Shown: positions 276 through 15,510 of the stretch, in pieces
Position numbering within the stretch: position 1 is the first letter of the stretch
Layout of the letters: each line of letters starts with the position of its first letter
Virus record (IMG/VR): IMGVR_UViG_3300028393_000373
Coordinates: 1 to 21,861 of that record
Length of the DNA stretch: 21,861 nucleotides
From: a virus
Reading direction: 5' to 3' (one strand)
The notes under the pieces: generated by a model
What the model was told of the DNA's origin: nothing
The model's database searches: none
Seen by the model: only the letters and a program-made list of their open reading frames with translations
Translations under genes and position numbers: made by a program

Positions 276-3200
276 ATGGCTCAAGATAACCAAGGACCAT
301 CTGGAGTAAAAGACTTAGGTGGGTTAGTAAATAAAGACATTGCTTTTAGTAAAGTCCCTGAGAATGTAGTTTATGAATCTAAAAACTTTAGAGTAACTAC
401 AGATGATGGAGGTACATTAGCTGTTAGGTCTAATATAAAAGGTAATACATCAGTAATAAGTATTCCTAATGTACCATGTACTAAAGCATTAGTATTTGAC
501 TTAAATAAAGTAGGTAATCGTCTTACTGTAAGTCAACAATACACTTTAGAATTTTTTATTAATAGTGCAGGGCCTATAAATTTTGTATTTACTTATTCAT
601 CTATAAATACTTTTTTAAATGATGTTATAACATTTATAAATACAAATTCTACTTTTGTTTCTAGTTCTATTACAGCTGCACCTACATATAATACACAAGG
701 AGTATTTAGTACAAACTCTAGTACAACATATACAGGTACAATTGTATTAAGTTTAGTTAATTGTGAAACAATAAGTACAGGTAATTTTTATTCAGGTACT
801 GTTGCTTCTACTTTTACTAACTTAGGTTATAGTCCAGCAGATCAAAATTGTGTAAATTTATATTCTACTGAAGACCTTACTTTACCTGACTATAATACAA
901 ATTTAAATTTATTACCTATTGGTAATAGTAGTTATATAGGAGTTGCAGGTCCTGACCAATGGCAGTTAGATAATCAATGGTTTGGAGGTAATACATCTAC
1001 ACCTAATTATACTATTAACTTAGGTACTAATATAATTAATGCAGCAGGTGTTCCTTTATCCCACGCTTCTAATGTAACAAGAATTAGATACCAAGATTCT
1101 GATACTACAGCTTCATTTAAAAATCCTTCTTTTGCTTTAACAGCATATTATCCTTTAGGAGCAAATGCTTATAATTTACAAGATTATCCTACAGGTCCTT
1201 ATAATTTTGATTTAAGTTATTATGTAGGAGCTTTAAATACTACTGATGTAAGCTTTAAGTTAAAAGTTTACATGCACATGGGTAATGCTTGGACTGATTC
1301 AAGTCTTACTTATGAATATCCTACTATACTTAATAGTAGTCAATTTGATGGTACATATAAATGTGCTAAGGTTTATGAGCAAGCTTTAACTTCTACTAAT
1401 ATAAATCATTTAGCATTAAATGGAAATAATATAACTATTCCTGTAACTTTATCTGATACACCATATAATAATGGAGCTACACAAATTCCTGTTTATATTG
1501 TATTTGTTGAAGCTGTGTCTACAGGTGTTACTCCTTTTACATATAATATAGATTTTAATTTAGATTATTTAAAAGTAGCAGGTCCAGTTATTAATCCTAA
1601 TTTAGTTGTAGTAAATGATTTATCAGCAGGTGCTGCTAATCCATCAATTATAGGTTGGGTTAGTTTAAGAGATTCATATGATGATAATTTATATTTACTT
1701 ACTACTACAGGTAAAGTAGACCCTGATGACCCTACAACATGGGGAGGTCCTAATCTTCCTGTTACAGATGGACAGATATGGAAATTACATTATAATAAAG
1801 CAGGAGATTATACTGATAGTACAAATTATACTCTTGCTTTAATCTATGCTAATTCTGCATTAAACTTTACTGTATATCGTCCTATTGCTAATCCAGGAAT
1901 GATAGAAGGTAGATATGAAAATGAATTTATTCAAAAGATTTATTGGACAGATAATTATAATGTACCTAGACAAATAAATGTAGCTGATCCTAATGTAGCT
2001 AATTTAACATTAGAACAATTAAGATTACTTCCTTCTTTATCTATGGACTTACCTCAAGTAACAGAAGTTATAGTTGGTGGTGGTTTATACATGGGAGTAT
2101 ATCAAGTAGCCTACAGATTAAAAAATACAAATGGTTCAGAAACAAGGTTTAGCAGAACTTCTCAGTTAATTCCTATTATAGATGCACCAGAAAGTATTAC
2201 TGTAACTAATACATATTATCCTACAAAACCTTTATTAGATAATACAAATACTAATGACCCTAAACCTACAGTAGCAGGTAAATCAATTAGAGTAGAAGTT
2301 CAAAATGTAGATACAAATTTTGATACAATAGAATTTGCTACTTTGTATTATAGAGATAATACAAGTACTCCAGAAATTAATGTAGTAAAGGAAGTAATTA
2401 TTCCTTCTAATGGAATAATAGATACTTACATATCAGGTAATGAAGATAAAGTACCTATTACATTAGATGAGTTTACTGCATTTACTTCTGCAATTAATAG
2501 AGCTAAAACATTGGCTGCTAAGAAACAAACTTTGTTTTTAGGTAATGTAGCATTAGGAACTCAAATAGTAAATTGGGATGCTAGAGCATATAGGTTTCCT
2601 AGAAATAGTTCTACTACTATAATTACAGATGTTTCAAATACAAATAAAACTTATACATTAGATCAATCTTTAAATTATCAAATTACTCAAGAGAATGGAG
2701 TTTCTGTAACTCCTTATTTAATTCCTGAAGAACATGATTGTATTCAAGATTATAATTCTCAATCTCCTACTGTTGATACTAAATATTTATATCAACCTAA
2801 TAGTAATGTATTAGGAGGAGCAGGTCCTAATGTATCTTATGAATTTGTTACAGAGACTTTATTATTAGATAATAAAAAAGATAATGCTAATAATACTTTT
2901 GCTCCTCATTTAACTCCTGCTACTAATACAGGAACTACATTTTGGTCTGAAGATAGATATTATGCAAGTAAAGGTAATTCTTTATCTAACAATAACTCTC
3001 CTTATAAATATGATATATTCGTAGGTTATAGAAGAGATGAAATGGAAAGATTTGGTATTGTTTTTTTTGATGAACTAGATAATCCTACTTATGTAAATTG
3101 GATTGGAGATATTAGAATGCCTCATATGTTTATGCCTGACACTACAGATGGTGCAGTATATGCAGGAAGTGGTAATGGACGTAGTACAATTGATTCTTCT

Positions 3201-5813
3201 AATTTACATACTAATGTAGTTAAACTTGATACTACTAATGATTTTTTATATGGTAAACCTTTAGGAATTAGATTTACTATTGACTTTAGTAATTTACCAC
3301 CTCAATATAAAAAAGCTTCTATTGTACGTGTTCCTAAAAAAGAAGAAGATAAACATATATTAGGACAAGGATTATTTATAACTAGTGTTAAAACAAAAGA
3401 TGTAAGTCCTTTTCCGCAACAAGTATTTTTATGTAATCCTTCTCCTTATAATGCATATGATTATTATGATAGTATAAACAATGAAGTTTGGTTTGATTGT
3501 TGGTCATTTCATAGCCCTGATTTTTTATTTGATAAATTTTCAGGATATAGTGGAACAGATGCAATAGATGTATTAGGACTTTATAAAAGTATTAGTAATA
3601 CTTATTTATCAGATCAATATTCTCCTTCACAAGTTGTTGCAGTAGATGGTACATACCTTCTTGATAGTAAAGGAAGTCATAATATAGAAGGCTATGGAGC
3701 TAGACATAAAGTATATAGTTTAAATGAAAGTACTACTTTTCCTGCATCTATAAAAAATGTAAATACTTTTAATCCTTATCCTATTCAAAAAGCTACTTCT
3801 GTAAATGCAGGAGGAGATACTAGAAGTTATGATACAGGAATAACTGCTGATTATTCAGGAGGTACAATAAGAACTGTTCATAATTGTGCCCCTAAAGATT
3901 TATCTAGTTCACATGGTGGAGGATTAGGAACTAGTGCTGTAGGATATTCTTATGGAAGTAATTCTGTATTTATAGAATTAACTGAAGGACCTGCAAGTAA
4001 TTGGAATAAAACTGCATTTGGAGGAAATCAATTTTTAGGTGAACAATATTCACTTAGTGTTAGTTTTCCTACATCTCATTATTTAGCTAATTATACAAGA
4101 GTTATTCAAGGAGGTCCTTTTGGAGGCCATGGTTATTTTGCTAGGTCTACTAGTGAATATATTCCTTGTAATAATTTAATTGATATATCTTCTCATGGAG
4201 TTGTATCTACAAGAGTATTTGGAGGAGATACTGCAGTAGCAGTTATGGATCATACTATTCAATTTTATGATAGAGCAGAAGGAAGTGCTTTTTTATCTAA
4301 TTCTGATTCAGCTAAACTATTAACACATTGGGTATACTTTCCTTGTGAAACTTATGTAGCAATAGATTATAGAAGAAATTATAAAGATACTACAACTTTA
4401 ACTTATACAGGTGTTCCTAACAGAAGTAGGATTACAGAAAGTCCTGGTAATTTAAATGACTGGGGTACTGCTCCATATAGAATAGGAGCAGCTGAATACT
4501 TTAATGTAGATAATGTTTATAATCATACAGATAAATCTGCATATACATACTTTGCTAAACCTGCGTTAGGAGATATATCTCTTAGGTTTGATTGTAGAGT
4601 ATGGAAGTCTGAACCTAAACAAGATGGTGAGTTAGTAGAGTCTTGGAGTAACTTTAAACCTGGTGCATACTTAGATGTAGAATCAGCTTATGGTCCTTTA
4701 AATAACTTAATAGTATTTAAAGATAAGTTATACTATTTCCAAGATAGAGCATTTGGTCAATTACAAGTTAATGAACAAAAGTTAATTCAACCTGCTGATG
4801 AAACTGCAGCTAACTTAGTATTAGGTAGTTCAGGTATCTTAGAAAGGTATGATTATATTTCTACTAAGACAGGAACTAAACATCAGTTTGGTATGTCTGT
4901 ATCTGACAATAGTATGATATGGTTTGATACTCTTGCTAGAAAGATGTATAGATATACAACTCCTACAACTTCAGGCGGAGGCCTAGAACCTTTATCTGAT
5001 ATTAAAGGATTAAATGCTTTCTTGTATAATAGATTATCAGGTACTATTCAAACTAAAGATAATCCATATATCTATGAAGGAATTCATTGTACTTATGATT
5101 TTAGGCACAATGAATTTTATATGACTTTCTTAAATAAAGAAACTGAGTTTTATCTTACATTAGTTTATAATGATTTACTAGATGGGTATATAGGTGAATA
5201 CACTCATTATCCTAAAGTATATCTAAATGATAAATTAAACATCTTTTCTCCTGACCCAGTTAATTTATACAATGAAACATTGTATATCCATAACTATGGA
5301 AGATATGCTAAATTTTACCAATCACGTCTACCTGATTATTCTACATTAAGTTTTATTTTAAATACTTCTTCTACAACAGAAAAGGTTTTACAAAACTTAG
5401 AATTTGTAACAGAAGCTTTTAGTCCTAATACTCAACAAGCTCCTAGTGATTCACATTACTATGACCCTTTAGCTCAAATAGATTATCAAGATTTCTTTGA
5501 GTCTATGCGTATATCTGATAATTATCAAAATACTGATTGGATTACTTTAATTCCTAATAAATTAGATTTAAGTAGTAGAGATAATTATGCTAGAAGACAT
5601 AAGACTATTTGGAACTTACGTGTACCATCAGATAGAGTGCTAGATGTAAATCAAAATATATTTGATAATTTAAATCTTTCTTCTGTAAGACCACGTTTAA
5701 CTAGAAGGTTAAAAGACAAATGGTTTATGGTAGAATTACAATATAATAATAATCCTAATAATAAGTTAGTAGTTCATTCAGCTAAGGCTACTTTTGCTTT
5801 AAATTCAAGATAA
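276..5813 (+). CDS. crAss-like phage muzzle / tail stabilisation protein (P22 gp10-like role)
   Basis: This 1845-aa protein is a probable structural component at the tip of the short tail. The N-terminus (residues about 12-60) has the pattern I associate with crAss-like stabilisation/muzzle proteins: a Gly-Gly-x-x-NKD stretch, then VPEN, a 'KNFRVTTDDGG' segment and an 'IKGNTSVI' segment. Residues about 1473-1620 carry the other signature: GPLNNLIVFKDKLYYFQD, then a segment containing VNEQKLI, LGSSGIL and YDYIS, and then aromatic beta-strand repeats suggestive of a propeller. The C-terminus ends in a segment containing KWFMVELQYNN. Residues about 60-500 are rich in Ser, Thr, Asn and Tyr and look like beta-sandwich or adhesin-type sequence. 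No signal peptide, transmembrane helix or catalytic motif is seen. The start at 276 lies 4 nt after the upstream stop, without a Shine-Dalgarno sequence. It is 1 nt from the next gene, fitting a tail-then-cargo gene order. Family assignment is from memory, and exact homology to crAss001 gp44 is an inference. Confidence 0.8.
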   Translation: MAQDNQGPSGVKDLGGLVNKDIAFSKVPENVVYESKNFRVTTDDGGTLAVRSNIKGNTSVISIPNVPCTKALVFDLNKVGNRLTVSQQYTLEFFINSAGPINFVFTYSSINTFLNDVITFINTNSTFVSSSITAAPTYNTQGVFSTNSSTTYTGTIVLSLVNCETISTGNFYSGTVASTFTNLGYSPADQNCVNLYSTEDLTLPDYNTNLNLLPIGNSSYIGVAGPDQWQLDNQWFGGNTSTPNYTINLGTNIINAAGVPLSHASNVTRIRYQDSDTTASFKNPSFALTAYYPLGANAYNLQDYPTGPYNFDLSYYVGALNTTDVSFKLKVYMHMGNAWTDSSLTYEYPTILNSSQFDGTYKCAKVYEQALTSTNINHLALNGNNITIPVTLSDTPYNNGATQIPVYIVFVEAVSTGVTPFTYNIDFNLDYLKVAGPVINPNLVVVNDLSAGAANPSIIGWVSLRDSYDDNLYLLTTTGKVDPDDPTTWGGPNLPVTDGQIWKLHYNKAGDYTDSTNYTLALIYANSALNFTVYRPIANPGMIEGRYENEFIQKIYWTDNYNVPRQINVADPNVANLTLEQLRLLPSLSMDLPQVTEVIVGGGLYMGVYQVAYRLKNTNGSETRFSRTSQLIPIIDAPESITVTNTYYPTKPLLDNTNTNDPKPTVAGKSIRVEVQNVDTNFDTIEFATLYYRDNTSTPEINVVKEVIIPSNGIIDTYISGNEDKVPITLDEFTAFTSAINRAKTLAAKKQTLFLGNVALGTQIVNWDARAYRFPRNSSTTIITDVSNTNKTYTLDQSLNYQITQENGVSVTPYLIPEEHDCIQDYNSQSPTVDTKYLYQPNSNVLGGAGPNVSYEFVTETLLLDNKKDNANNTFAPHLTPATNTGTTFWSEDRYYASKGNSLSNNNSPYKYDIFVGYRRDEMERFGIVFFDELDNPTYVNWIGDIRMPHMFMPDTTDGAVYAGSGNGRSTIDSSNLHTNVVKLDTTNDFLYGKPLGIRFTIDFSNLPPQYKKASIVRVPKKEEDKHILGQGLFITSVKTKDVSPFPQQVFLCNPSPYNAYDYYDSINNEVWFDCWSFHSPDFLFDKFSGYSGTDAIDVLGLYKSISNTYLSDQYSPSQVVAVDGTYLLDSKGSHNIEGYGARHKVYSLNESTTFPASIKNVNTFNPYPIQKATSVNAGGDTRSYDTGITADYSGGTIRTVHNCAPKDLSSSHGGGLGTSAVGYSYGSNSVFIELTEGPASNWNKTAFGGNQFLGEQYSLSVSFPTSHYLANYTRVIQGGPFGGHGYFARSTSEYIPCNNLIDISSHGVVSTRVFGGDTAVAVMDHTIQFYDRAEGSAFLSNSDSAKLLTHWVYFPCETYVAIDYRRNYKDTTTLTYTGVPNRSRITESPGNLNDWGTAPYRIGAAEYFNVDNVYNHTDKSAYTYFAKPALGDISLRFDCRVWKSEPKQDGELVESWSNFKPGAYLDVESAYGPLNNLIVFKDKLYYFQDRAFGQLQVNEQKLIQPADETAANLVLGSSGILERYDYISTKTGTKHQFGMSVSDNSMIWFDTLARKMYRYTTPTTSGGGLEPLSDIKGLNAFLYNRLSGTIQTKDNPYIYEGIHCTYDFRHNEFYMTFLNKETEFYLTLVYNDLLDGYIGEYTHYPKVYLNDKLNIFSPDPVNLYNETLYIHNYGRYAKFYQSRLPDYSTLSFILNTSSTTEKVLQNLEFVTEAFSPNTQQAPSDSHYYDPLAQIDYQDFFESMRISDNYQNTDWITLIPNKLDLSSRDNYARRHKTIWNLRVPSDRVLDVNQNIFDNLNLSSVRPRLTRRLKDKWFMVELQYNNNPNNKLVVHSAKATFALNSR

Positions 5814-5814
5814 T

Positions 5815-8800
5815 ATGGCTACACAAAATAAACCTGCTCCTAAACCTAGAGTAGACTCAGATGAAAAAATAAAAAACTTTGCTATTGAAACTGGTAGTTA
5901 TGAAAGTTTTAAACCTAAAGTTTATAGAGATAATCGTGGTTATCTTACAATAGGACATGGTTTTAATTTAGATGATGCAGGTACTACTGCTTTTTTAAAA
6001 AACCAAGGTTACAATGTAAATGATTTACGTAGTGGTAAAGCAGCTTTAAATAAAAAAGAATCTACTGATTTATTAAATTTATTATTTGCTCGTTCTTATG
6101 ATCAAGCTAGAAACTTTGTACCAAACTTTGATACTCTTCCTGAAAAGGCTAGATATGTTTTAGCTGATATGACTTATAATATGGGTCTTTCTAAATTAGC
6201 AAAATTTAAACAAATGAAAGCTGCTTTTGAAAATAATAATTTTAATGAAGCAGCTAAACAATTAAAAGATTCTGATTATTATGATCAAGTAGGTAGAAGG
6301 TCTAGAGCACATTATAATGAACTATTAGACTTAACAGCAAAAACTGAACCTCAATTAGGATTTGTACCTAATTTTCCTGTACTTGAATATACTGATAAAG
6401 GGTTAACTCCAAAATGGGTTAACTATCCTGCACAAATAGGTCCTACACAAGATAATGCTACATATTTAGACACACAACCTTCTGAAGAATCTGTACTTCA
6501 ACCTAAGATTGATGCTTTAGGATGGGATGGTTTTCATTATGTTAAAAAAGAAAATCTTCCTAAAAAGGTAGAACCTACTATGTGGCAAAGTACTAAAGAA
6601 GCAGTAAAAGGATGGTTAAATGATTTTGAAGATAATACTTCTAATACTACTCCTAATCCTAATGATACTCCTATTCCTCCTATATTTAAACGTGGTGGAA
6701 AAATTTCAAAAGAAAGTAATAGTCCTACTTATAACCCACTAGATGACCCTAGGAATAAACCTACTGTTTATTTTAGTAAAGATAGAAGTAATTATGATCC
6801 TCTTTCTAATAATATTTATTTTAATCCTAATAATAATCCTTGGAATCCAGAAGATATATTAAAGCATGAAGGGTATCATTGGGCTCAAAATATGTATGGA
6901 GATTTACAAGCTCCAGACTTATACCCTGGTCCTTTAAGAAAACCTCAAACTCCAACTAACCCAAATACTTCATTAATACCTGATTATTATAATAGAGCTG
7001 CTTTAGAAAATCAAGTATCTCTTAATTATATGAAAGAAGGTAGAAATGCTTATGTAGATGAAAAAGGAAAGTCATTAATGCCTGATGATGTAGTTGTACC
7101 TTCAAGTCCTAGTTTACAATTTATTCCAAATGATGTTATATGGAGAGGTGTTAGAACTGACAATAGACCTTATAATGAATATACACATATTCCTGGAGCA
7201 GATGCTTTAAGATATAATACTCCTGATACTATAGAAGGTGATGCTAAATATTATGAAGATACTGAACCTATTAGTAATAAACCTATAATGGGCATTTATG
7301 GATTAGAAGATACATTAGGTTATAAACATGGAGGTTTAATTAAAAGAGCAGATGGTTCTTATTCTCGTAGAGGTCTATGGGATAATATAAGAGCTAATCG
7401 TGGTTCAGGACGTAAGCCTACTGCTGAAATGCTTAGACAGGAAAGAAAGATTAAGAAACATGCTGATGGTGGCTGGGTAAATATGTATGCAAATGGTTCT
7501 ACAGTAAAAGGTAATAAACCTCCTCAAAAAACTTTAAAGCAATCTTTATTAAATTATAAAGAAGGAGCAGATGAAAATAAGTTTGAACTTTTAGATCCTA
7601 CAGGAATTCTTTCTTGGGATGATGCTGCAAAAGGTTATGACTCATGGCAAAAATCTGGTAGAACTTTACCTACTTTATCAGAAGGTCTAGATATGTTTAG
7701 TGCTATACCTATTTTTGGTAAAGCTAAACAAGTAGAAATGGGTATGAAAGAAGCTGCTAATGCGTCTAAATGGGCAATAGATTGGTGGAAAGCTTATCAT
7801 GCTGCAGATTATCTTAGAGATGAATATAATGATAAAATTAAAAAGCATGATGATGGTTCATGGGTAACAGATAGTTCTATTCCTACACCTACTACTCCTT
7901 CTTATTATCCTGCAGGAGAAGATAGAACTTTAACTAATTATCAGATGGGTACTCTTAAAGCACCTATGTATGCAAGTGGAGGAGGAGTAAAGCCTATCTA
8001 TGTAACAAGTAAAAATGACCCTAGATTAAAAGCTTATAATGATAGTTTGAGTTTGTATAAAGAGAATTTTAATCAATTAAGATCAGAAAAATTAGATTTT
8101 ACACCTAAATTTTTAAAAAGGATTCCTTTTAATATAAAAAATGATAACATGTATGCTAAGGATTTCTTTGAAAGAAATGATATGTGGGATAGGAGAAGTC
8201 AAGGAGAAGTTTATCCAGAAAAAATAAAACCTATTTATTTTGATATAAATCAGATTGGTGATCAAACCCAACATAGTGCTTATTATAAAAAACCAGTACA
8301 ACCAATAATTTATAGAAAAGAAGAAGATATAAAACCTATTACATCAGGTGTAACAAAAGCAGAGAATGTAGCTTTTCCTACATATGAAGAAGAGTTAAAA
8401 CCTATGGCTCCTATTCCTCAAGAAGCTGTAAGAAGAATGTTTAATCCTGCATTTGACTTTAATATAGACTTTATGCCTAATAGAACTAAAGAGGCAGTTG
8501 TAGATCAAGCAGGTAATCCTAGATACAAGTATTACAATCAAGATAATGTAATATCTGAATCTGAGTATAATAATTTAATGAAAAAAGCTGATGGTGGTTC
8601 TATTATGTATGGACCAGGAGGAGGAGTGCAACCTTTTATAACATCTGACCCTAACTTATATAAGCAAAGATTACAAGCTTATAATGATAGTGTTTATACT
8701 CATAATCTTGGATTAGCAAATTTAAACTATGCTCAAAATCAACTTAAACAAAATGTAGATAAGTTTAATGCTCAATTGCCTTCAGCATTTGGACATATTA

Positions 8801-11046
8801 TTGGACCATCAATTAGCATTGCTCCTTTAAATAGATTTCATGTAGATAGTGGAGGAGATGTAATTAGAGGAATTTATCCTACTGAAGCAGCTTTTCAAGA
8901 AACTAATAATATGCGTTGGACAGGACAAGAGGATTATTTTAATTTATATAATAATCCTTCTTATTATAGACCTATGACACCTGATGAATTGAGTCAATAT
9001 ACTCAACTTAGAGCACTTCAACCAGTTTATCAACATGATCATTATTTTCCTTATGAAAGAAAAGATATTTATCACACTGGGTATATTGATTTATATGATG
9101 CTCCTAAACAAAAAGTAATCTTTGATAAAAATGCTCCTCCTGTTACTCAAAAGAAAAGTATAAAACCTTTACATCCAAAACAACATAGTGTTGAAATTAT
9201 AGACCCTATAAAAAGAAAAGAATTAAATCTTACAGATTTAGCTCTTCCTACAGAAGAATATGATATGCAACCTGTTCGTGATGTAGCTCCTCAAGGTTCT
9301 TCACAACTTACATTAAGAATGGTTCCTAATCCTAAGTTTAATGTTGGTTCAGGTAAAAGAAGTAAAGAACCTATAGTTGATCAATTAGGAAATCCTAGAA
9401 ATGTATTTTATAATAGAGATAAGGTAATTGGAAAAGAAGAGTATAATAAGTTATGGGATGAGCAAAATAAATTTGCTCAAGGTGGTCCTGTAATGTACAA
9501 TGCAGGTTCTACTGTATGGACTAATCAAGATACACCTCTTTGGGCTGCTGGTACTTCTACTCCAACTGCTACTCAACACTTTAGAAATACAGGTAGTTTA
9601 AATACTAGTAAATATAAAATAGGTGATGTAATACCTACAGGTATGAATTATAAAACTCCATCTTCAGGTACACATGATTATAATCAAGATGTACAACCTC
9701 CTAAAAAAATGGTTTTACATGCACCTGATACTACTATAATGGCTAAACATGGAGGACAAATAAAGAAACATGTAAATAGTCCTAGAGTACATGGTAATCC
9801 TGTTAATCCTAGTGGAATGAGTGAAGGTCCTTCTATGCAAAGAGGCGGAATGATGTTTGCAGATGGAGGAGGAATACAAGATATAATTAATCAACAATTA
9901 AATCAAAGTAGACCTCAAAGAGATGTAACTACCATTACACCAAAAAATTTAATTGCAGAATCTGTAGCTAAAGATATTGCAACATATGGTAGTGTTGAAA
10001 AAGCAGCTCAAGCAAAAGCTATTAAGAAATCACAAGCTGCTCAAAAAGAATCTACTATATCTACTCCTAAAATTGGACAGGGTAATTATGAATATTATAA
10101 TCCTGCACAAGGTGAATTTAGAGATGATACTAAGATAGCACCTGAAGGTTCAACTAGAGCAACGACTCAAGATTATCTGAATAAAGCAAATATGTTTATG
10201 GGATTTGGTTTAAATCCTGCAGCTAAATTTGCATATAATGCATTTGTCAGTGGACCTGCTCAATCTGCAATCAATCTTTCAAATACTGCTATGGGTAATA
10301 GACCTATAAGAGGTAATGAAGATTTTGCAAATTTTGGATGGGATGTTGCTAATGTTCTTCCATATGTTGAAGGTGTTACAAGTGGAGGAAAAAATCTTTT
10401 TAATGCAGGTAAAAATCTTTTTAGAGGAGCACGAAATGCTAATAATGCAATTTCAAAAACTAATCTTATTACTGATGAATTAGGAGTAAAGAGTGTTATA
10501 AATAATGCAGCAAAAGATAGATATTTTAAAGATATACAATTAGCAAAAGATGTACCTCCTGTTAGCACAAGAGAACCTAAATTCTATGAATATGGTACTA
10601 AGGAATTTGATCAAAGTTTATTAGACAGCCACTTTGCAGGTGAAAATGCTGCATTTAATATGGAAAATAATGGTTATGAATTTGACAATTATTTACAAGC
10701 AAAAGAAATAAATCCAATTTTACAGGAAGAGATGTTGCAAAGAGGGTTACTTAAAGAGTCTATAAAAAAACAACTTGGATTTCCAATTTCTGAAGCTGCT
10801 GATTTTAATTTAACTGATCCATTTAGTCCTTATAAAAACATATTTAATACATATGATCCTTTTTCAAAATATGGTTTATTTAATTTTGATGATGATGTTT
10901 TAAATATGCTTGAAAAAACAACATATAATCCAGCAAGAAATAAACAGTTTTGGCAAGAGTCTTTAAATAAAACCCCTCGTATGAATAAAATGGGTGGCTA
11001 CATACAAAATAATAACTCAAACACTTGGTTAGATCAATATAATTAA
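5815..11046 (+). CDS. Virion cargo protein with N-terminal T4-type lysozyme and zincin-like domain
   Basis: This is a 1743-aa mosaic. Residues about 20-172 are a GH24 lysozyme: E30, D39 and T45 have exactly the 9- and 6-residue spacing of the T4 lysozyme triad E11-D20-T26, inside YRDNRGYLTIGHG. It should cut peptidoglycan during entry. Residues 351-355 are HEGYH, an HExxH zinc-protease motif, with E398 (ALENQVS) as a possible third ligand. Residues about 520-548 hold a basic GLWDNIRA...KIKK segment. Residues about 718-1226 are two diverged tandem copies of one module. Gly-Gly motifs recur from residue 294 onward. Residues about 1450-1560 are Ala/Gly-rich and partly hydrophobic, and the extreme C-terminus again carries MGGY. 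The ATG lies 1 nt after the previous stop, with no Shine-Dalgarno sequence. Position after the muzzle gene suggests an ejected internal protein. Catalytic activity of the zincin part is unproven. Confidence 0.8.
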   Translation: MATQNKPAPKPRVDSDEKIKNFAIETGSYESFKPKVYRDNRGYLTIGHGFNLDDAGTTAFLKNQGYNVNDLRSGKAALNKKESTDLLNLLFARSYDQARNFVPNFDTLPEKARYVLADMTYNMGLSKLAKFKQMKAAFENNNFNEAAKQLKDSDYYDQVGRRSRAHYNELLDLTAKTEPQLGFVPNFPVLEYTDKGLTPKWVNYPAQIGPTQDNATYLDTQPSEESVLQPKIDALGWDGFHYVKKENLPKKVEPTMWQSTKEAVKGWLNDFEDNTSNTTPNPNDTPIPPIFKRGGKISKESNSPTYNPLDDPRNKPTVYFSKDRSNYDPLSNNIYFNPNNNPWNPEDILKHEGYHWAQNMYGDLQAPDLYPGPLRKPQTPTNPNTSLIPDYYNRAALENQVSLNYMKEGRNAYVDEKGKSLMPDDVVVPSSPSLQFIPNDVIWRGVRTDNRPYNEYTHIPGADALRYNTPDTIEGDAKYYEDTEPISNKPIMGIYGLEDTLGYKHGGLIKRADGSYSRRGLWDNIRANRGSGRKPTAEMLRQERKIKKHADGGWVNMYANGSTVKGNKPPQKTLKQSLLNYKEGADENKFELLDPTGILSWDDAAKGYDSWQKSGRTLPTLSEGLDMFSAIPIFGKAKQVEMGMKEAANASKWAIDWWKAYHAADYLRDEYNDKIKKHDDGSWVTDSSIPTPTTPSYYPAGEDRTLTNYQMGTLKAPMYASGGGVKPIYVTSKNDPRLKAYNDSLSLYKENFNQLRSEKLDFTPKFLKRIPFNIKNDNMYAKDFFERNDMWDRRSQGEVYPEKIKPIYFDINQIGDQTQHSAYYKKPVQPIIYRKEEDIKPITSGVTKAENVAFPTYEEELKPMAPIPQEAVRRMFNPAFDFNIDFMPNRTKEAVVDQAGNPRYKYYNQDNVISESEYNNLMKKADGGSIMYGPGGGVQPFITSDPNLYKQRLQAYNDSVYTHNLGLANLNYAQNQLKQNVDKFNAQLPSAFGHIIGPSISIAPLNRFHVDSGGDVIRGIYPTEAAFQETNNMRWTGQEDYFNLYNNPSYYRPMTPDELSQYTQLRALQPVYQHDHYFPYERKDIYHTGYIDLYDAPKQKVIFDKNAPPVTQKKSIKPLHPKQHSVEIIDPIKRKELNLTDLALPTEEYDMQPVRDVAPQGSSQLTLRMVPNPKFNVGSGKRSKEPIVDQLGNPRNVFYNRDKVIGKEEYNKLWDEQNKFAQGGPVMYNAGSTVWTNQDTPLWAAGTSTPTATQHFRNTGSLNTSKYKIGDVIPTGMNYKTPSSGTHDYNQDVQPPKKMVLHAPDTTIMAKHGGQIKKHVNSPRVHGNPVNPSGMSEGPSMQRGGMMFADGGGIQDIINQQLNQSRPQRDVTTITPKNLIAESVAKDIATYGSVEKAAQAKAIKKSQAAQKESTISTPKIGQGNYEYYNPAQGEFRDDTKIAPEGSTRATTQDYLNKANMFMGFGLNPAAKFAYNAFVSGPAQSAINLSNTAMGNRPIRGNEDFANFGWDVANVLPYVEGVTSGGKNLFNAGKNLFRGARNANNAISKTNLITDELGVKSVINNAAKDRYFKDIQLAKDVPPVSTREPKFYEYGTKEFDQSLLDSHFAGENAAFNMENNGYEFDNYLQAKEINPILQEEMLQRGLLKESIKKQLGFPISEAADFNLTDPFSPYKNIFNTYDPFSKYGLFNFDDDVLNMLEKTTYNPARNKQFWQESLNKTPRMNKMGGYIQNNNSNTWLDQYN
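5872..6330 (+). other. GH24 (T4-type) lysozyme domain within the 1743-aa protein
   Basis: The domain covers roughly residues 20-172 of the host protein. The core matches T4 lysozyme position by position: E30/E11, Y37/Y18, D39/D20, G42/G23, Y43/Y24, T45/T26, then I-G and G49/G30. One visible difference is Phe at residue 50 where T4 lysozyme has His31. The segment 'YVLADMTYNMGLSKLAKFKQM' (about residues 117-137) fits the helical lobe of the fold. The domain is intact, so it is predicted to be an active N-acetylmuramidase carried in the virion. It has no signal peptide or holin partner nearby, which argues against a role as the lysis endolysin. Confidence 0.88.
6748..7068 (+). other. HExxH zincin-like segment within the 1743-aa protein
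   Basis: HEGYH is encoded at 6865-6879 (residues 351-355), preceded by a segment ending NPEDILK, in the layout seen in metallopeptidase active-site helices. A candidate third zinc ligand, E398 (codon at 7006), lies 43 residues after the second His in AALENQVS. The segment is short, about 105 residues, so it could be a minimal protease domain or a degenerate one. The substrate is unknown; processing of the host polypeptide or of neighbouring virion proteins is a guess. Confidence 0.5.
7372..7506 (+). other. Basic GLWDNIRA...KIKKHADGG module with the Gly-Gly joint
   Basis: About 30 strongly basic residues run from GLWDNIRA through GSGRKPT to KIKKHADGG, and the full joint motif follows as ADGGWVNMYANGSTV (7462-7506). 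I recall similar 'LWDNIR...' segments as short stand-alone modules in unrelated phage virion proteins; that is memory, not a search result. The function is unknown. Net positive charge would suit contact with DNA or with an acidic lumen. Confidence 0.5.
7966..8604 (+). repeat. Diverged tandem protein repeat, copy 1 (213 aa)
   Basis: The copy starts with MYASGGGV, followed shortly by DPRLKAYNDS. It ends with VVDQAGNPRYKYYNQDNVI, EYNNLMKK and ADGGSI. The two ends match copy 2 clearly while the middle is poorly conserved. The matching parts use different codons, so this is an old duplication kept at protein level rather than a recent DNA repeat. Confidence 0.72.
8605..9492 (+). repeat. Diverged tandem protein repeat, copy 2 (296 aa)
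   Basis: The copy starts with MYGPGGGV, followed by a segment containing TSDPN and LQAYNDS. It ends with IVDQLGNPRNVFYNRDKVI, EYNKLWDE and AQGGPV. It is about 83 residues longer than copy 1. The extra length is a Tyr/Pro/His-rich middle, roughly residues 1010-1110, with no match in copy 1. The next motif (MYNAGSTV) begins directly after it, so copies are bounded on both sides by the same Gly-Gly/Met-Tyr joint. Confidence 0.72.
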
Positions 11047-11071
11047 TTAATTTTATAAATTATTTTATCCT
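11047..11071 (+). promoter_or_regulatory. 25-nt A/T-only-like leader before the 785-aa gene
   Basis: This is the longest gap between genes in the window. It is almost pure A/T, with three C/T bases just before the ATG, and has no Shine-Dalgarno sequence. No Bacteroidota -7 box (TAnnTTTG) is seen. It may serve only as an unstructured translation-initiation leader. A weak 6-bp A/T palindrome at 11048-11062 is expected by chance at this composition. Confidence 0.25.
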
Positions 11072-13429
11072 ATGAATAAAGCACAACAAATGCTAGCTAA
11101 GGCTGGCTTCCCTGATACAGCAGCAGGAAGAGCTGCTTTTCATAAACAATATCCTACTCCTGAATCTTTTTTTCAAGTCCATGGTGACCAAGATAATGAC
11201 ATGAATTCAGAACCTGATATGGACTCTGATGATATGTATAAATCAGGTGGTGGTATTCATATTAAGCCTTCTCATAAGGGAAGGTTTACTGCATATAAAC
11301 AACGTACAGGTAAAACTACTGAAGAAGCTTTACATTCTAAAGACCCACATGTTAGACAAATGGCTAACTTTGCTCGTAATGCAGCTAAGTGGAAACATGA
11401 AGATGGAGGACCTGTAATGTATGCTGATGGAGGTAAACTTCCTGAAAGTGTGCTTCGTAGTAGACTTGAATCTCACATGAGTCCTAATGAAGCTCAAAAC
11501 TATATTGATAGTTATGGTCATGGAGGTGTAGTAGATGTATATCAATTAATGGGTATGCCTACTCCTTCTATGTATGGATATGGAAGTCATATAACTCATT
11601 ATAGTCCTTCTTATAATTTTGGCCATGTTCAAAGTGCTAATAATACTTATAGACATGGCTATGCTAATGGAGGTCATGTAGGTATGTATAACTTTGGTTC
11701 TACTATTAAAGATATAGGAGCAGCTGCTTATGGAGTAGGAGAAGCTACTTTAGATACTGCTACTATGGGTCTTACAGATCAATTAACTGATGCAGGATAT
11801 AAAGGATTACAAAAAATAGGTGGTACTACAGATCCTAATAAATTAAAAAAACAAAACCTTTTACATGGCGCAGGTGAAGTAGCAGGAGCTGTTGTAGGTG
11901 GAGTAGCTACAGGTAATGTATCAGGTGCTTTTAATCAAGGACTAAAAGGTGCTAATGATGTTATTCAAAATACTAATATGAATGAGAATGACAAAGCTAA
12001 TTGGAGTACAGGTATTAATATGGGTAGAATGGCTACTCAATTTATAGGTGGTAATCCACTTAAAAGTGGAAGTCCTGGTCAAAGTGTAACACCTGGTGGT
12101 ACTAATTTTGGTACAGGTATGCCTGGTGGAAATTTAAGTAATTATGGAATTGGCTTTGCAGCTATGGGTGGTGCAGTTAATGCACCTAACATGATGAAGT
12201 ATGCACAAGGAGGTATGACTCCTGCTACAGAAATTAATGTAGAAAAAGGAGAGTTGCTTGTAAATAAAGATGGTAAAATTTTAACAGAATATAAAAGTAA
12301 TAACATGGTTCCACATCCTGAAGGTGGAGGTATGGACCCAAGAGGTACAGTACCTGCACAAGAAGGTCAATTTGTTATTACTAAAAGATTATCTCCTAGT
12401 TATAAAGCTGCTATGACTAATAATGATAAGTTATATGCAGATGCAATGCGTAATAATATTGCCTTTGATAAACAAAGAAAAGAAGCTAAACAACAAGCTG
12501 AAGAACAATTAATGGCGCAAAAAGCTAGTAAAGCTTATGGTAGATTTATGGCTAAGTATGGTGGGTATGTTCCTAAAATGGATGGAGGAAGTACTGTTGC
12601 TCCTATATTTGGAGAAGGTTATAATAATCCTGAAGCTCAACAAAATGAATATTTAGGATTAGATATTATTAATAAAACAAATAATAATATTATTCCAACA
12701 GGACAAGATGGTACACCTACTCCTTCTTGGTTTGCTAGAAATCAAGGAGATTTAAAAACTATAGGTGGTGAAGCTTTAATGTATGGCCCAGGTATTTATA
12801 ATATGGCTCGTAGCTTTGGTAAACCATTTCAAATGAATGCTGCAGATTATCAACTTAAAGGTAGAGTTAATCCTTATGAAGAAGAATATAGACCTGATTA
12901 TAGAACTTATAATGCAGCTGTAGCTAACTTAAATAGAATGCCTAATTCAGGTAATTTAGCAGCTAGAACTAACTTATTTAATGCTATGCAACAACAACAA
13001 GATGATGCTAGATATAAAATTAGTTTAGCTAATGCTCAAAGAAAAATGAGTGCTCAACAAGCTAACTTAGGAATAGAAGGTCAGAACTTAAATACTGCTA
13101 TGCAACTTGCTCAATTTAATGAACAAAATAGAGCTGCTAAACGTAATATGTTAGGTCAAGGTATAAGTGATTTAAGTAATATTGCACAGTTTGAAAAAAC
13201 TAATGCAATGACAGGTAATGCATTAGGAAGTATTATGCAACATTATACTGTACTTCCTGATGGTACTATGATTCCTAAAGGTGGTTATAACCCAGCAGGT
13301 TATAGTCCAATCTATAATCAAAGTAATACTCCAATTACTAATTCTAATGACCCTAATTTAATATCTCCTAATAGATACTCAGGAGGAATAAATTTTACTC
13401 CTACAAAACCAAGCTTTAGAAATAAATAA
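11072..13429 (+). CDS. Probable internal virion (cargo) protein rich in Gly-Gly joint motifs
   Basis: This 785-aa protein has no recognised enzyme domain. In order: an N-terminal helical segment (AGFPDTAAGRAAFHKQYPTP, residues 12-31); an IHIKPSHKGRFT to KWKHEDGG module (about residues 62-113) of a type I recall in other phage virion proteins; several Gly-Gly/Met-Tyr joints; an Ala/Gly-rich hydrophobic stretch with GxxxG spacing (about residues 266-293); a compact segment beginning VEKGELLV and ending EGQFVITKR (about 390-440) with HPEGGG between; two more joints near residue 500; and a Gln/Asn/Ala-rich, probably helical, C-terminal third (about 610-720). It follows the lysozyme-cargo gene by 25 nt and shares its joint motifs, which suggests a joint role in the particle. 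No signal peptide or classical transmembrane helix is seen. The start choice is supported by the first in-frame ATG after the gap. Confidence 0.75.
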   Translation: MNKAQQMLAKAGFPDTAAGRAAFHKQYPTPESFFQVHGDQDNDMNSEPDMDSDDMYKSGGGIHIKPSHKGRFTAYKQRTGKTTEEALHSKDPHVRQMANFARNAAKWKHEDGGPVMYADGGKLPESVLRSRLESHMSPNEAQNYIDSYGHGGVVDVYQLMGMPTPSMYGYGSHITHYSPSYNFGHVQSANNTYRHGYANGGHVGMYNFGSTIKDIGAAAYGVGEATLDTATMGLTDQLTDAGYKGLQKIGGTTDPNKLKKQNLLHGAGEVAGAVVGGVATGNVSGAFNQGLKGANDVIQNTNMNENDKANWSTGINMGRMATQFIGGNPLKSGSPGQSVTPGGTNFGTGMPGGNLSNYGIGFAAMGGAVNAPNMMKYAQGGMTPATEINVEKGELLVNKDGKILTEYKSNNMVPHPEGGGMDPRGTVPAQEGQFVITKRLSPSYKAAMTNNDKLYADAMRNNIAFDKQRKEAKQQAEEQLMAQKASKAYGRFMAKYGGYVPKMDGGSTVAPIFGEGYNNPEAQQNEYLGLDIINKTNNNIIPTGQDGTPTPSWFARNQGDLKTIGGEALMYGPGIYNMARSFGKPFQMNAADYQLKGRVNPYEEEYRPDYRTYNAAVANLNRMPNSGNLAARTNLFNAMQQQQDDARYKISLANAQRKMSAQQANLGIEGQNLNTAMQLAQFNEQNRAAKRNMLGQGISDLSNIAQFEKTNAMTGNALGSIMQHYTVLPDGTMIPKGGYNPAGYSPIYNQSNTPITNSNDPNLISPNRYSGGINFTPTKPSFRNK
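11255..11440 (+). other. IHIKPS...KWKHEDGG module followed by the Gly-Gly joint
   Basis: This module spans residues about 62-123. It opens with IHIKPSHKGRFT, continues through a TGK-TEEALHSKDP segment to ANFARNAAKWKHEDGG, and runs straight into the joint GGPVMYADGGKL. The basic, helical look and the terminal KH-x-DGG parallel the GLWDNIRA module in the upstream gene, although the two sequences are otherwise unrelated. I recall this family of segments as widespread in tailed-phage virion proteins; role unknown. Confidence 0.5.
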
Positions 13430-13431
13430 TT

Positions 13432-15510
13432 ATGGCTATATCAATATGGGATAAACCAGCTGAACTTAAATTAACACCTCTACCTTTTGAGGCATTAATG
13501 CAAGCTGGTTTAATGAAAGAAAAACAATATTCAGAAGGTGAAGCTTTAGAAGGTTCTTTAAATGATGAACTTGCTAAGATTGGTAGTATAGATATTGATA
13601 CTCCTGATAAAATAGCTGAGTTACAAAAGTATAAACAAGGTATTAATACTATTGTAGATAAATACAAAGGAGATTATGGTGCAATGTCTTCTGCATTTAA
13701 ACAATTGCAGAAAGATTTTAACTATAATAAAAACTATGGTAAGTTATCAGGTATTATAAATAGATATAACAAAAGAGTAGAAAGTGTTAATGCTAAAGTA
13801 GAAGCTAATAAAGAATGGATAAAGAGTAATGGAGAAAGAGGAATGAGTCCTGAAGATGTTGATGCAGCTCAAAAAGCAGAAGATGCTAATCAAGCTCCAT
13901 TAACTCAAAACCTTAGATTAGGTACATGGACTGGTTATAGAGCTGAAGACCCTAGAAATAGTATTAATTATAATACTGTAGCTTTAAAATATTCTGATAA
14001 AATTACTCCTGAAGTATTACGTCTTGAGGCAAAAAATAGAGGTTTACATGATGCAGGATATGGTTATCTTAAAAGTGATGATGGTACAATAAAAATATCT
14101 CCAGCTAATTTTAGAGCTCAAGTTATTGCAGATGCAATGAAGAATGATGAAGTAGTAAAAAATTATACAGCATGGCGTAATAGAATTACAGGTACAAATG
14201 ATAAAATATCTCAAATTGTAGGTAGTCCTGATAATAACTTTACAGGTATAGATTTAGAATCAGGTTTAGCTATTTCAAGAAATCCTAAAATTGCTAATAC
14301 ATTATTTGATGAATTATATCATAAACCTATTTATGATGCAGCTCGTTCTATAGGTAGTTTAACTAGAGTGTATGAAGAGAATTTAAAAACTGATTATCAC
14401 TTAAATGAAATAGCTAAAGAGCAAAGAGCTGCTCAAAAAGAAGCTGCTAATCAACCATATGAATATGCTATGGCAGGTTCATCTAATTCTATAAAAGACC
14501 TTACAGGTTTATCAAGTGATGACTTTAGTGTTATTCCTGTAGGTACTAAAGTAAATACAGCCCCTTTAATTAACCCAGACGGTTCAATAAGTATTAATGC
14601 TTTAAGAAGTCCTTCAGGACAAAACTTAAACATTAAAACAGTTACTACTCCTACTCCTAAAGTTGATGCTAATAATTTCCAAGGAGTTGAAAGAAATGGG
14701 TTTACTAATTTATTAAGAACATTAGCTTATATGAAACCTAATGATCAGTATGTTCAAGATGTTTATAATAAGTATAAAAATGGAGAAAAGCTTACTAATC
14801 AAGAAATGTTAGATACTTATCCTCATGTACAAAAAATAGCTGAGGCTGCTAATAAGTTAAGTATGGCTAATACTAATGTAAGTAATATAATAGATAATAA
14901 AGAAAGAGCAGCTATAAATCAATTACTTGGAACTAAAGGTGATGAAGTTGTTACAGTAAAACAATTAGGTACAGGTAATATAGGTAACTTAGAAATTTAT
15001 GATGTAGCTAATCATAAAACTATTAATGCTTCACAATTAAAAGCTAATCATATTATGAACCCTGATTCTCAAGTTAGTATTCAAGGTAAAATAAATGGTC
15101 CTAATGCTTATAGTATTTTAACAGGAAATAAGAAGTATGCTAATGGTTATCAATTGTTTATAGATGGTAAAGAATATATCATAGAAGCACCTCTTGAATG
15201 GAAAGACCCTAAAATGGCTATCCCTGCTCTTATGAAACAAAATGAAGCAGCTAATTATGCAGCTGTAGTTCAACCAGGTGTAGTATTAGCTGAAAATTTT
15301 GAAGGTATAGATTATGATTATAAGTTTACAGAAGACCCTAAAAATGCTGATCAAGGTTTATATACAGTAAACATTAAACCTGTAAAAGATGAATCTGCTG
15401 CAGCTAAGAGTTATAGAGAAGCTGTTCTTAATACACCTTTACCAAGTGCTAAAGATGTAACAGGAATTTTATTAGAGTATTATAAAATTATCAATACACC
15501 AACTAAATAA
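13432..15510 (+). CDS. Probable internal virion protein, function unknown
   Basis: This 692-aa protein starts MAISIWDKPAELKLTPLPF, with an ATG 2 nt after the previous TAA and no Shine-Dalgarno sequence. Residues about 20-150 are charged and probably helical or coiled-coil (an LQKYKQGINTIVDKYKGDYG segment, then an Asn/Lys-rich stretch). The middle contains TGIDLESGLAISRNPK and an Asn/Thr-rich region. Residues about 490-600 look mixed alpha/beta. No signal peptide, transmembrane helix, metal site or nuclease/protease motif is visible, and the Gly-Gly joint motif of the two preceding genes is absent. In crAss-like phages a protein with this kind of N-terminus (short hydrophobic 'LPF' then long helices) commonly precedes the giant virion proteins, so a cargo or structural role is likely from context. 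I cannot name a domain. Confidence 0.7.
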   Translation: MAISIWDKPAELKLTPLPFEALMQAGLMKEKQYSEGEALEGSLNDELAKIGSIDIDTPDKIAELQKYKQGINTIVDKYKGDYGAMSSAFKQLQKDFNYNKNYGKLSGIINRYNKRVESVNAKVEANKEWIKSNGERGMSPEDVDAAQKAEDANQAPLTQNLRLGTWTGYRAEDPRNSINYNTVALKYSDKITPEVLRLEAKNRGLHDAGYGYLKSDDGTIKISPANFRAQVIADAMKNDEVVKNYTAWRNRITGTNDKISQIVGSPDNNFTGIDLESGLAISRNPKIANTLFDELYHKPIYDAARSIGSLTRVYEENLKTDYHLNEIAKEQRAAQKEAANQPYEYAMAGSSNSIKDLTGLSSDDFSVIPVGTKVNTAPLINPDGSISINALRSPSGQNLNIKTVTTPTPKVDANNFQGVERNGFTNLLRTLAYMKPNDQYVQDVYNKYKNGEKLTNQEMLDTYPHVQKIAEAANKLSMANTNVSNIIDNKERAAINQLLGTKGDEVVTVKQLGTGNIGNLEIYDVANHKTINASQLKANHIMNPDSQVSIQGKINGPNAYSILTGNKKYANGYQLFIDGKEYIIEAPLEWKDPKMAIPALMKQNEAANYAAVVQPGVVLAENFEGIDYDYKFTEDPKNADQGLYTVNIKPVKDESAAAKSYREAVLNTPLPSAKDVTGILLEYYKIINTPTK

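Follow-up and report, generated by a model that had tools for sequence, protein, structure and literature searches.

Two adjacent genes in a virus fragment carry the same short two-part Gly-Gly/Met-Tyr motif many times over, which raises the question of what such a repeated sequence does in their products. The fragment, hereafter the window, is a 21,861-base stretch from an uncultured Crassvirales phage. Crassviruses rank among the most abundant viruses of the gut. A first-pass annotation of the window had named protease cleavage sites, docking tags, and joints for module shuffling as possible roles of the motif. The analysis described here favors, with a probability of roughly 70%, the reading that the motif is a joint, conserved at the protein level, that connects interchangeable modules in the two proteins, which are probable ejected cargo.

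Gene Order and Cargo Assignment

The first complete ORF of the window encodes a muzzle protein, which serves as the upstream landmark for the cargo genes. It is followed by p2 (1743 aa), C1 (785 aa), a C2-position protein (692 aa), and an open-ended partial gene of the virion-RNA-polymerase type (Table 1). In crAss001, the muzzle gp44 is followed by cargo C1 gp45, cargo C2 gp46, and then RNA-polymerase-associated proteins (PMC10172136). The window exhibits the same order of muzzle, C1, C2, and RNA-polymerase-type genes, the C2 and polymerase identities being assigned by position only, with p2 inserted between the muzzle and C1. Both a crAss_MUZ muzzle gene and the crassvirus gene order, the marks of a Crassvirales virion locus, were hence found in the window.

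p2 and C1 are probably ejected virion cargo. For C1, this status is based on synteny, the crAss001 cryo-EM (PMC10172136), and homology to gp45: residues 47–107 match gp45 361–423 (40%, 1e-7), and residues 566–713 match g069 of Cellulophaga phage phi14:2 (3e-5), which is itself homologous to gp45 597–751. For p2, a virion role is suggested by its locus together with phi14:2 g070 and g069, which occupy the same place and were identified as virion proteins by MS/MS. No relatives emerged when C1 or the C2-position protein was used directly as the query, and the C1 sequence had no match in the PDB. The labels obtained from Pfam, PHROGs, and NCBIfam were limited to the muzzle, the lysozyme, and the SLT domain of one relative; none of these databases had an entry for the joints or for the cassette termed module A.

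p2 carries at its start a T4-type lysozyme family match, whose Glu/Asp/Thr positions (IETG, YRDN, and YLTIG) were judged by eye only, followed by an HExxH block that is a putative protease. A structure model of a p2 fragment was discarded (pLDDT 32). Podovirus ejection proteins (T7 gp14–16, N4-like, and P22 gp7/16/20) are internal virion proteins, some with cell-wall enzymes, that are ejected before the DNA. The window cargo is similar in having cell-wall enzymes that would be carried in the virion; we know of no motif-bounded module exchange in the podovirus proteins.

Table 1. Features of the window, with the evidence for each.
Feature	Position	Strand	Evidence
Muzzle protein (crassvirus tail-tip gatekeeper)	276..5813	+	Pfam crAss_MUZ E 3e-143; motif count 0
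p2, 1743-aa modular protein, probable ejected cargo	5815..11046	+	ORF; joints; module exchange with relatives
T4-type lysozyme domain of p2	5896..6309	+	Pfam Phage_lysozyme E 3e-6; T4 lysozyme E 1e-6
HExxH (zincin-like) module of p2, HEGYH at 6865–6879	6733..7314	+	homologous block in L020 and L021
Module A of p2 (LIKRADGSYSRRGLWDNIRANRGSGRKPTAEMLRQERKIKKH)	7333..7461	+	widely recurring cassette; usually flanked by GG joints
Joint ADGGWVNMYANGSTV	7462..7506	+	p2; motif match, aligned copies
Half joint MYASGGGV	7966..7989	+	p2; motif match
Joint ADGGSIMYGPGGGV	8587..8628	+	p2; motif match, aligned copies
Joint AQGGPVMYNAGSTV	9475..9516	+	p2; motif match, aligned copies
Joint QRGGMMFADGGGI	9838..9876	+	p2; motif match, aligned copies
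p2 C-terminal cap WLDQYN, joint motif family	11026..11043	+	terminal tag test
C1, 785-aa gp45-like cargo protein	11072..13429	+	gp45 and phi14:2 g069 matches; position after muzzle
GIHIKPSHKG module of C1	11249..11404	+	homologues in gp45, DAC15, and ~65 phage records; core pLDDT about 70–80
Joint EDGGPVMYADGGKL	11399..11440	+	C1; motif match, aligned copies; pLDDT about 30
Joint ANGGHVGMYNFGSTI	11663..11707	+	C1; motif match, aligned copies
Gly-rich hydrophobic module of C1	11699..12061	+	found in p2 in L022 and L025
C1 module between joints (YAQGGMT...AKYGG)	12212..12559	+	conserved in L022, L024, and L025
Joint YGGYVPKMDGGSTV	12557..12598	+	C1; motif match, aligned copies
C2-position protein	13432..15510	+	synteny with crAss001 gp46; motif count 0

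Recurrence of the Motif

All eight copies of the motif given by the first-pass annotation lie in frame at their coordinates within the p2 and C1 ORFs. Among the looser single Gly-Gly forms, MGGY at 10990 was placed correctly, whereas KRGG (6691), KHGG (7327 and 9748), and YAQGG (12203) had each been given a position 3 bases too high. The full pattern G[GD]x1-4M[YF]xxG[GSD] occurs 4 times in p2 and twice in C1, against an expectation of 0.00 for each from residue shuffles of the same protein, and the half pattern M[YF]xxG[GS] occurs 5 and 4 times (0.04 and 0.06 expected from the same shuffles). The muzzle, the C2-position protein, and the partial polymerase-type gene contain none, in agreement with the claim that the flanking genes lack the motif. 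The pattern was fitted to this window, and the relative L002 was used as an independent check; its cargo proteins have 4 and 2 copies of the full pattern, and its neighbor genes zero. A scan of the full IMG/VR for DGGxxMYxxGG gave 11 stretches, with many copies only in the lineage of the window.

The aligned copies give the rough consensus [KH]x[DENAY]GG[WYMPH][VIL]xx(M)YxxG[GSD]x[VIL], and at the protein level the joint may be written [HYM]xxGG[WMP][IVL]xx(M)YxxG[GSD]. The Lys/His cluster said to precede the copies proved to be a measurable preference for H/Y/M at −3 from the GG (41% of the cargo-gene pairs vs. 16% in other ORFs of the same viruses). At +3, I/L/V/M is found in 46% vs. 28%.

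Module Boundaries and Exchange among Relatives

Seven contigs with a related muzzle were collected as relatives, using the muzzle alignment A2 as the query (A1 was too diverse). Joints persist in them, but the modules in between have changed order, dropped out, or passed from one of the two genes, p2 and C1, to the other. The p2 blocks differ (T4 lysozyme in the window, transglycosylase of Pfam SLT type in L025, and others), and HExxH modules are present in the window, L002, L020, and L021. Module A and the HExxH block have one order in the window and L020 and the inverse order in L021. Module A resides in p2 in most relatives and in C1 in L025, and the hydrophobic block of C1 sits in p2 in L022 and L025. 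The number of joint copies also differs widely.

In 13 p2/C1-type proteins, 129 of 243 homology ends fell within 8 aa of a GG joint (null 51) when the joints were left unmasked. Since a conserved motif could itself attract alignment ends, the joints were then masked, which left 88 of 154 ends (57%) within this distance, against a mean of 15% and a maximum of 25% for equally masked decoys. The count was 248/590 (42% vs. 13%, maximum 16%) in a set of 50 independent proteins from outside this lineage, for which module A was hidden as well. Every GG pair was taken as a joint in these tests, with MYxxG[SD]-like pairs added for the first set; this definition includes some non-joint glycines, so that the test is conservative. 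The proposal that each copy ends a different module is thus supported.

The exchange itself can be seen between close relatives. Of nine clean whole-module indels, seven start and end no more than 10 aa from a GG (0.68 expected), though two of these seven may represent a single event. L021 is without module A precisely between two joints that the window and L020 have. The marine pair L029/L031 shares about 91% identity in most of the cargo region, the difference being ~250 residues that lie precisely between the joints FADGGDL and FDKGGDL. The only joint in L031 is like the first of these to the left and like the second to the right, indicating a crossover within the Gly-Gly codons.

At least 590 IMG/VR stretches encode module A. 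In the 80 stretches that were read, it usually lies between GG joints in very different proteins, and it is sometimes a free ORF of about 50 aa. A crassvirus muzzle was found in 43 of 48 records searched, most of which had been chosen for module A. In 37 of 41 placed cases, the module-A gene lies directly downstream of the muzzle, no more than 6.5 kb away and on the same strand; one further case may follow its muzzle across contig ends. At the sensitivity of the respective searches, no relatives of module A were found in 50,697 phage records or in the genomes of 84,980 bacterial and archaeal species. The joints are thus seams at which whole modules are gained, lost, and exchanged. The reading as homologous joints for the shuffling of modules, one of the roles first suggested, is strongly supported by the boundary tests, the joint-to-joint indels, the L029/L031 crossover, L021, and the spread of module A.

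Level of Constraint on the Joint

The L029/L031 crossover could be taken to mean that the nucleotide sequence of the joint is kept for promoting exchange, but short homology suffices for such a crossover. The joint codons vary freely between copies by synonymous drift, which places the constraint on the protein and not on the DNA, and Gly codons are used in them as elsewhere in these genes (p = 0.06 and 0.65). On the basis of codon use, a recombination site conserved as DNA was rejected as extremely improbable.

Gly-rich interdomain loops of no special function, in which recombination is merely tolerated, would be another protein-level account. Gly-Gly linkers are common, and part of the boundary signal could reflect such generic flexibility. 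The C1 structure model is weak (mean pLDDT 41, and no significant fold match), but its confident islands are separated by low-confidence joints, and this prediction is consistent with ordered modules separated by disordered joints, as generic linkers would also give. However, the residue preferences at −3 and +3 argue against mere flexibility, short of proving a function, and the aromatic and hydrophobic positions recur in unrelated contexts. Together with the terminal caps described next, they make generic linkers an unlikely explanation.

The p2 protein of the window ends with ...NTWLDQYN, and p2 proteins of relatives carry MxNWLDxY at their N-termini. All 8 terminal WLDxY hits in a first set of 453 ORFs were p2 proteins. 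In a wider set, WLDxY was found at 17 of 108 termini of module-A proteins vs. 8 of 1208 others (p = 6e-14), and at least five of these 8 likewise come from p2 genes. The pattern GGWL[DN]xY gave 8 matches in 20 whole records, all in or adjoining cargo genes according to coordinates converted by hand, while the reversed control pattern gave 0.

Comparison with crAss001 gp45 and Related Systems

In crAss001, gp45 is stretched out along the portal and the tail barrel, and its ejection in a partly unfolded state has been proposed; cryo-EM resolved a portal-bound segment (425–552) and a barrel-bound segment (214–245) (PMC10172136). The portal-bound segment starts at the joint-like AFGGWLNTQGG, and the barrel-bound one starts inside the joint-like SAYGGPLEFGSGAI, which places such sequence at or next to ordered virion contacts. 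gp45 (PDB 7qog, 7qoi, 7qoj, 7qol, and 8ckb) resembles the window cargo in its position after the muzzle, its GIHIK-type module, its A-F/Y-G-G joints between modules, and, via phi14:2 g069, its homologous C-terminal part. It differs in having fewer and looser joints, no Met-Tyr half, and no preceding p2 gene. The portal-bound domain forms one module in the module-A relatives L060 and L073 (E 3e-21 to gp45), and the phi14:2 cargo has a portal-type module between GG joints. In phi14:2 g070/g069, HExxH modules are likewise separated by GG joints and the muzzle adjoins, but the cargo is divided differently among the genes and the Met-Tyr repeats are absent. A profile search of the window with the gp45 portal-bound domain (425–552) gave no significant match; C1 residues 381–496, also without a significant match to it, are not claimed as a portal-binding domain.

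These segment starts bear on the docking role, in which GG-W/V-...-Y would be a short linear motif for a portal, ring, or capsid protein, repeated for multivalent loading, with swapping as a by-product. The confinement of the motif to the cargo genes of the locus and the WLDxY caps at p2 termini are also compatible with this role. However, tryptophan is missing from many joints, and copy number is very variable among relatives. Docking as the primary function is a serious possibility of somewhat less than even odds. Encapsulin-type cargo-loading peptides, short terminal tags on varied enzymes, would work alike, whereas the joint copies are internal as well as terminal and any shell binding by them is hypothetical.

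The same cryo-EM model bears on cleavage, in which a maturation or host protease would cut after Gly-Gly to free the modules. Proteases that cut at Gly-Gly are known, module A can also stand alone as a free ORF, and several p2 proteins have HExxH modules. The model of 425–552, however, passes intact through GG427–428 and GG434–435, and L022, L024, and L025 keep their joints with cargo genes lacking HExxH, which leaves other protease types or host proteases as candidates. Cleavage, the first role proposed, is thus opposed by both observations and appears very unlikely.

Proposed Role of the Joints

We propose, in keeping with the preferred reading as joints between interchangeable modules, that the cargo proteins sit in the capsid and tail as strings of small modules, which may be threaded out via the portal and tail as suggested by crAss001. 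The joints would be extended seams at which modules can be spliced in without disturbing their neighbors or the threading. By analogy, such a string fits the portal-to-barrel route of gp45. The aromatic part (GGW-L-D-x-Y / GGxV-MY) may further be a short address that seats the string on the portal, tail barrel, or capsid wall, for which we would put the chances a little under one half. More tentatively still, GG-W-L-D-x-Y / GG-x-V-x-MY could be an address-and-hinge code that docks swappable module strings in crassvirus heads and tails, with environmental crassviruses sharing a pool of modules.

Because the swapped modules include cell-wall enzymes, swapping would probably retune envelope penetration to the host. 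Phages exchange such envelope-penetration enzymes as whole cassettes, with the cuts at seams that are conserved in the protein, so that host adaptation may act on the cargo locus. With the joint motif defined, module boundaries can be predicted in hundreds of cargo genes that lack annotation, and the idea that a short peptide directs cargo loading becomes testable. Neither the motif nor a shuffling of modules in crassvirus cargo proteins was described in the literature searched, which held few subscription papers.

Additional Modules in the Cargo Proteins

Several further units were observed in these proteins. In p2, a repeated unit of ~60 aa (NPxFNxxxxRxKExVVDxxGNPRYxxYNxDxVIxxxEYNxL; 8430–8628 and 9294–9516) directly precedes two joints, and L002 has additional copies. 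Module A also occurs tens of kb from the muzzle, as the tail of a 167-aa protein or as a free 50-aa ORF (L093–L102, L124, and L125). A short domain, MTKQxILxMTGLSExEFYxxYPTQESF, is always located at the start of 12 C1-type proteins (L022, L024, L025, and others), and the C1 start in the window resembles a divergent version of it (pLDDT 72–86). The GIHIK module matches many gut crassvirus proteins annotated as 'transcriptional regulator' or 'putative transmembrane protein', annotations that look unreliable. In L002 (18270–20190) and L024 (11254–15315 and 15346–19032), a long Gly/aromatic module of alternating-strand-like sequence lies between joints (GFSTGFTTNYKLPG... and RITFPLIGGIDWSTKG...) and reads by eye like a putative outer-membrane β-barrel. 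C1 of DAC15 (L007:19248–21743) contains the GIHIK module twice in tandem, with the copies bounded by the GG joints AYGGPLFDEGGG, AEGGYLYEDGGG, and AEGGFLDDYD, and is an isolate-level example of module duplication.
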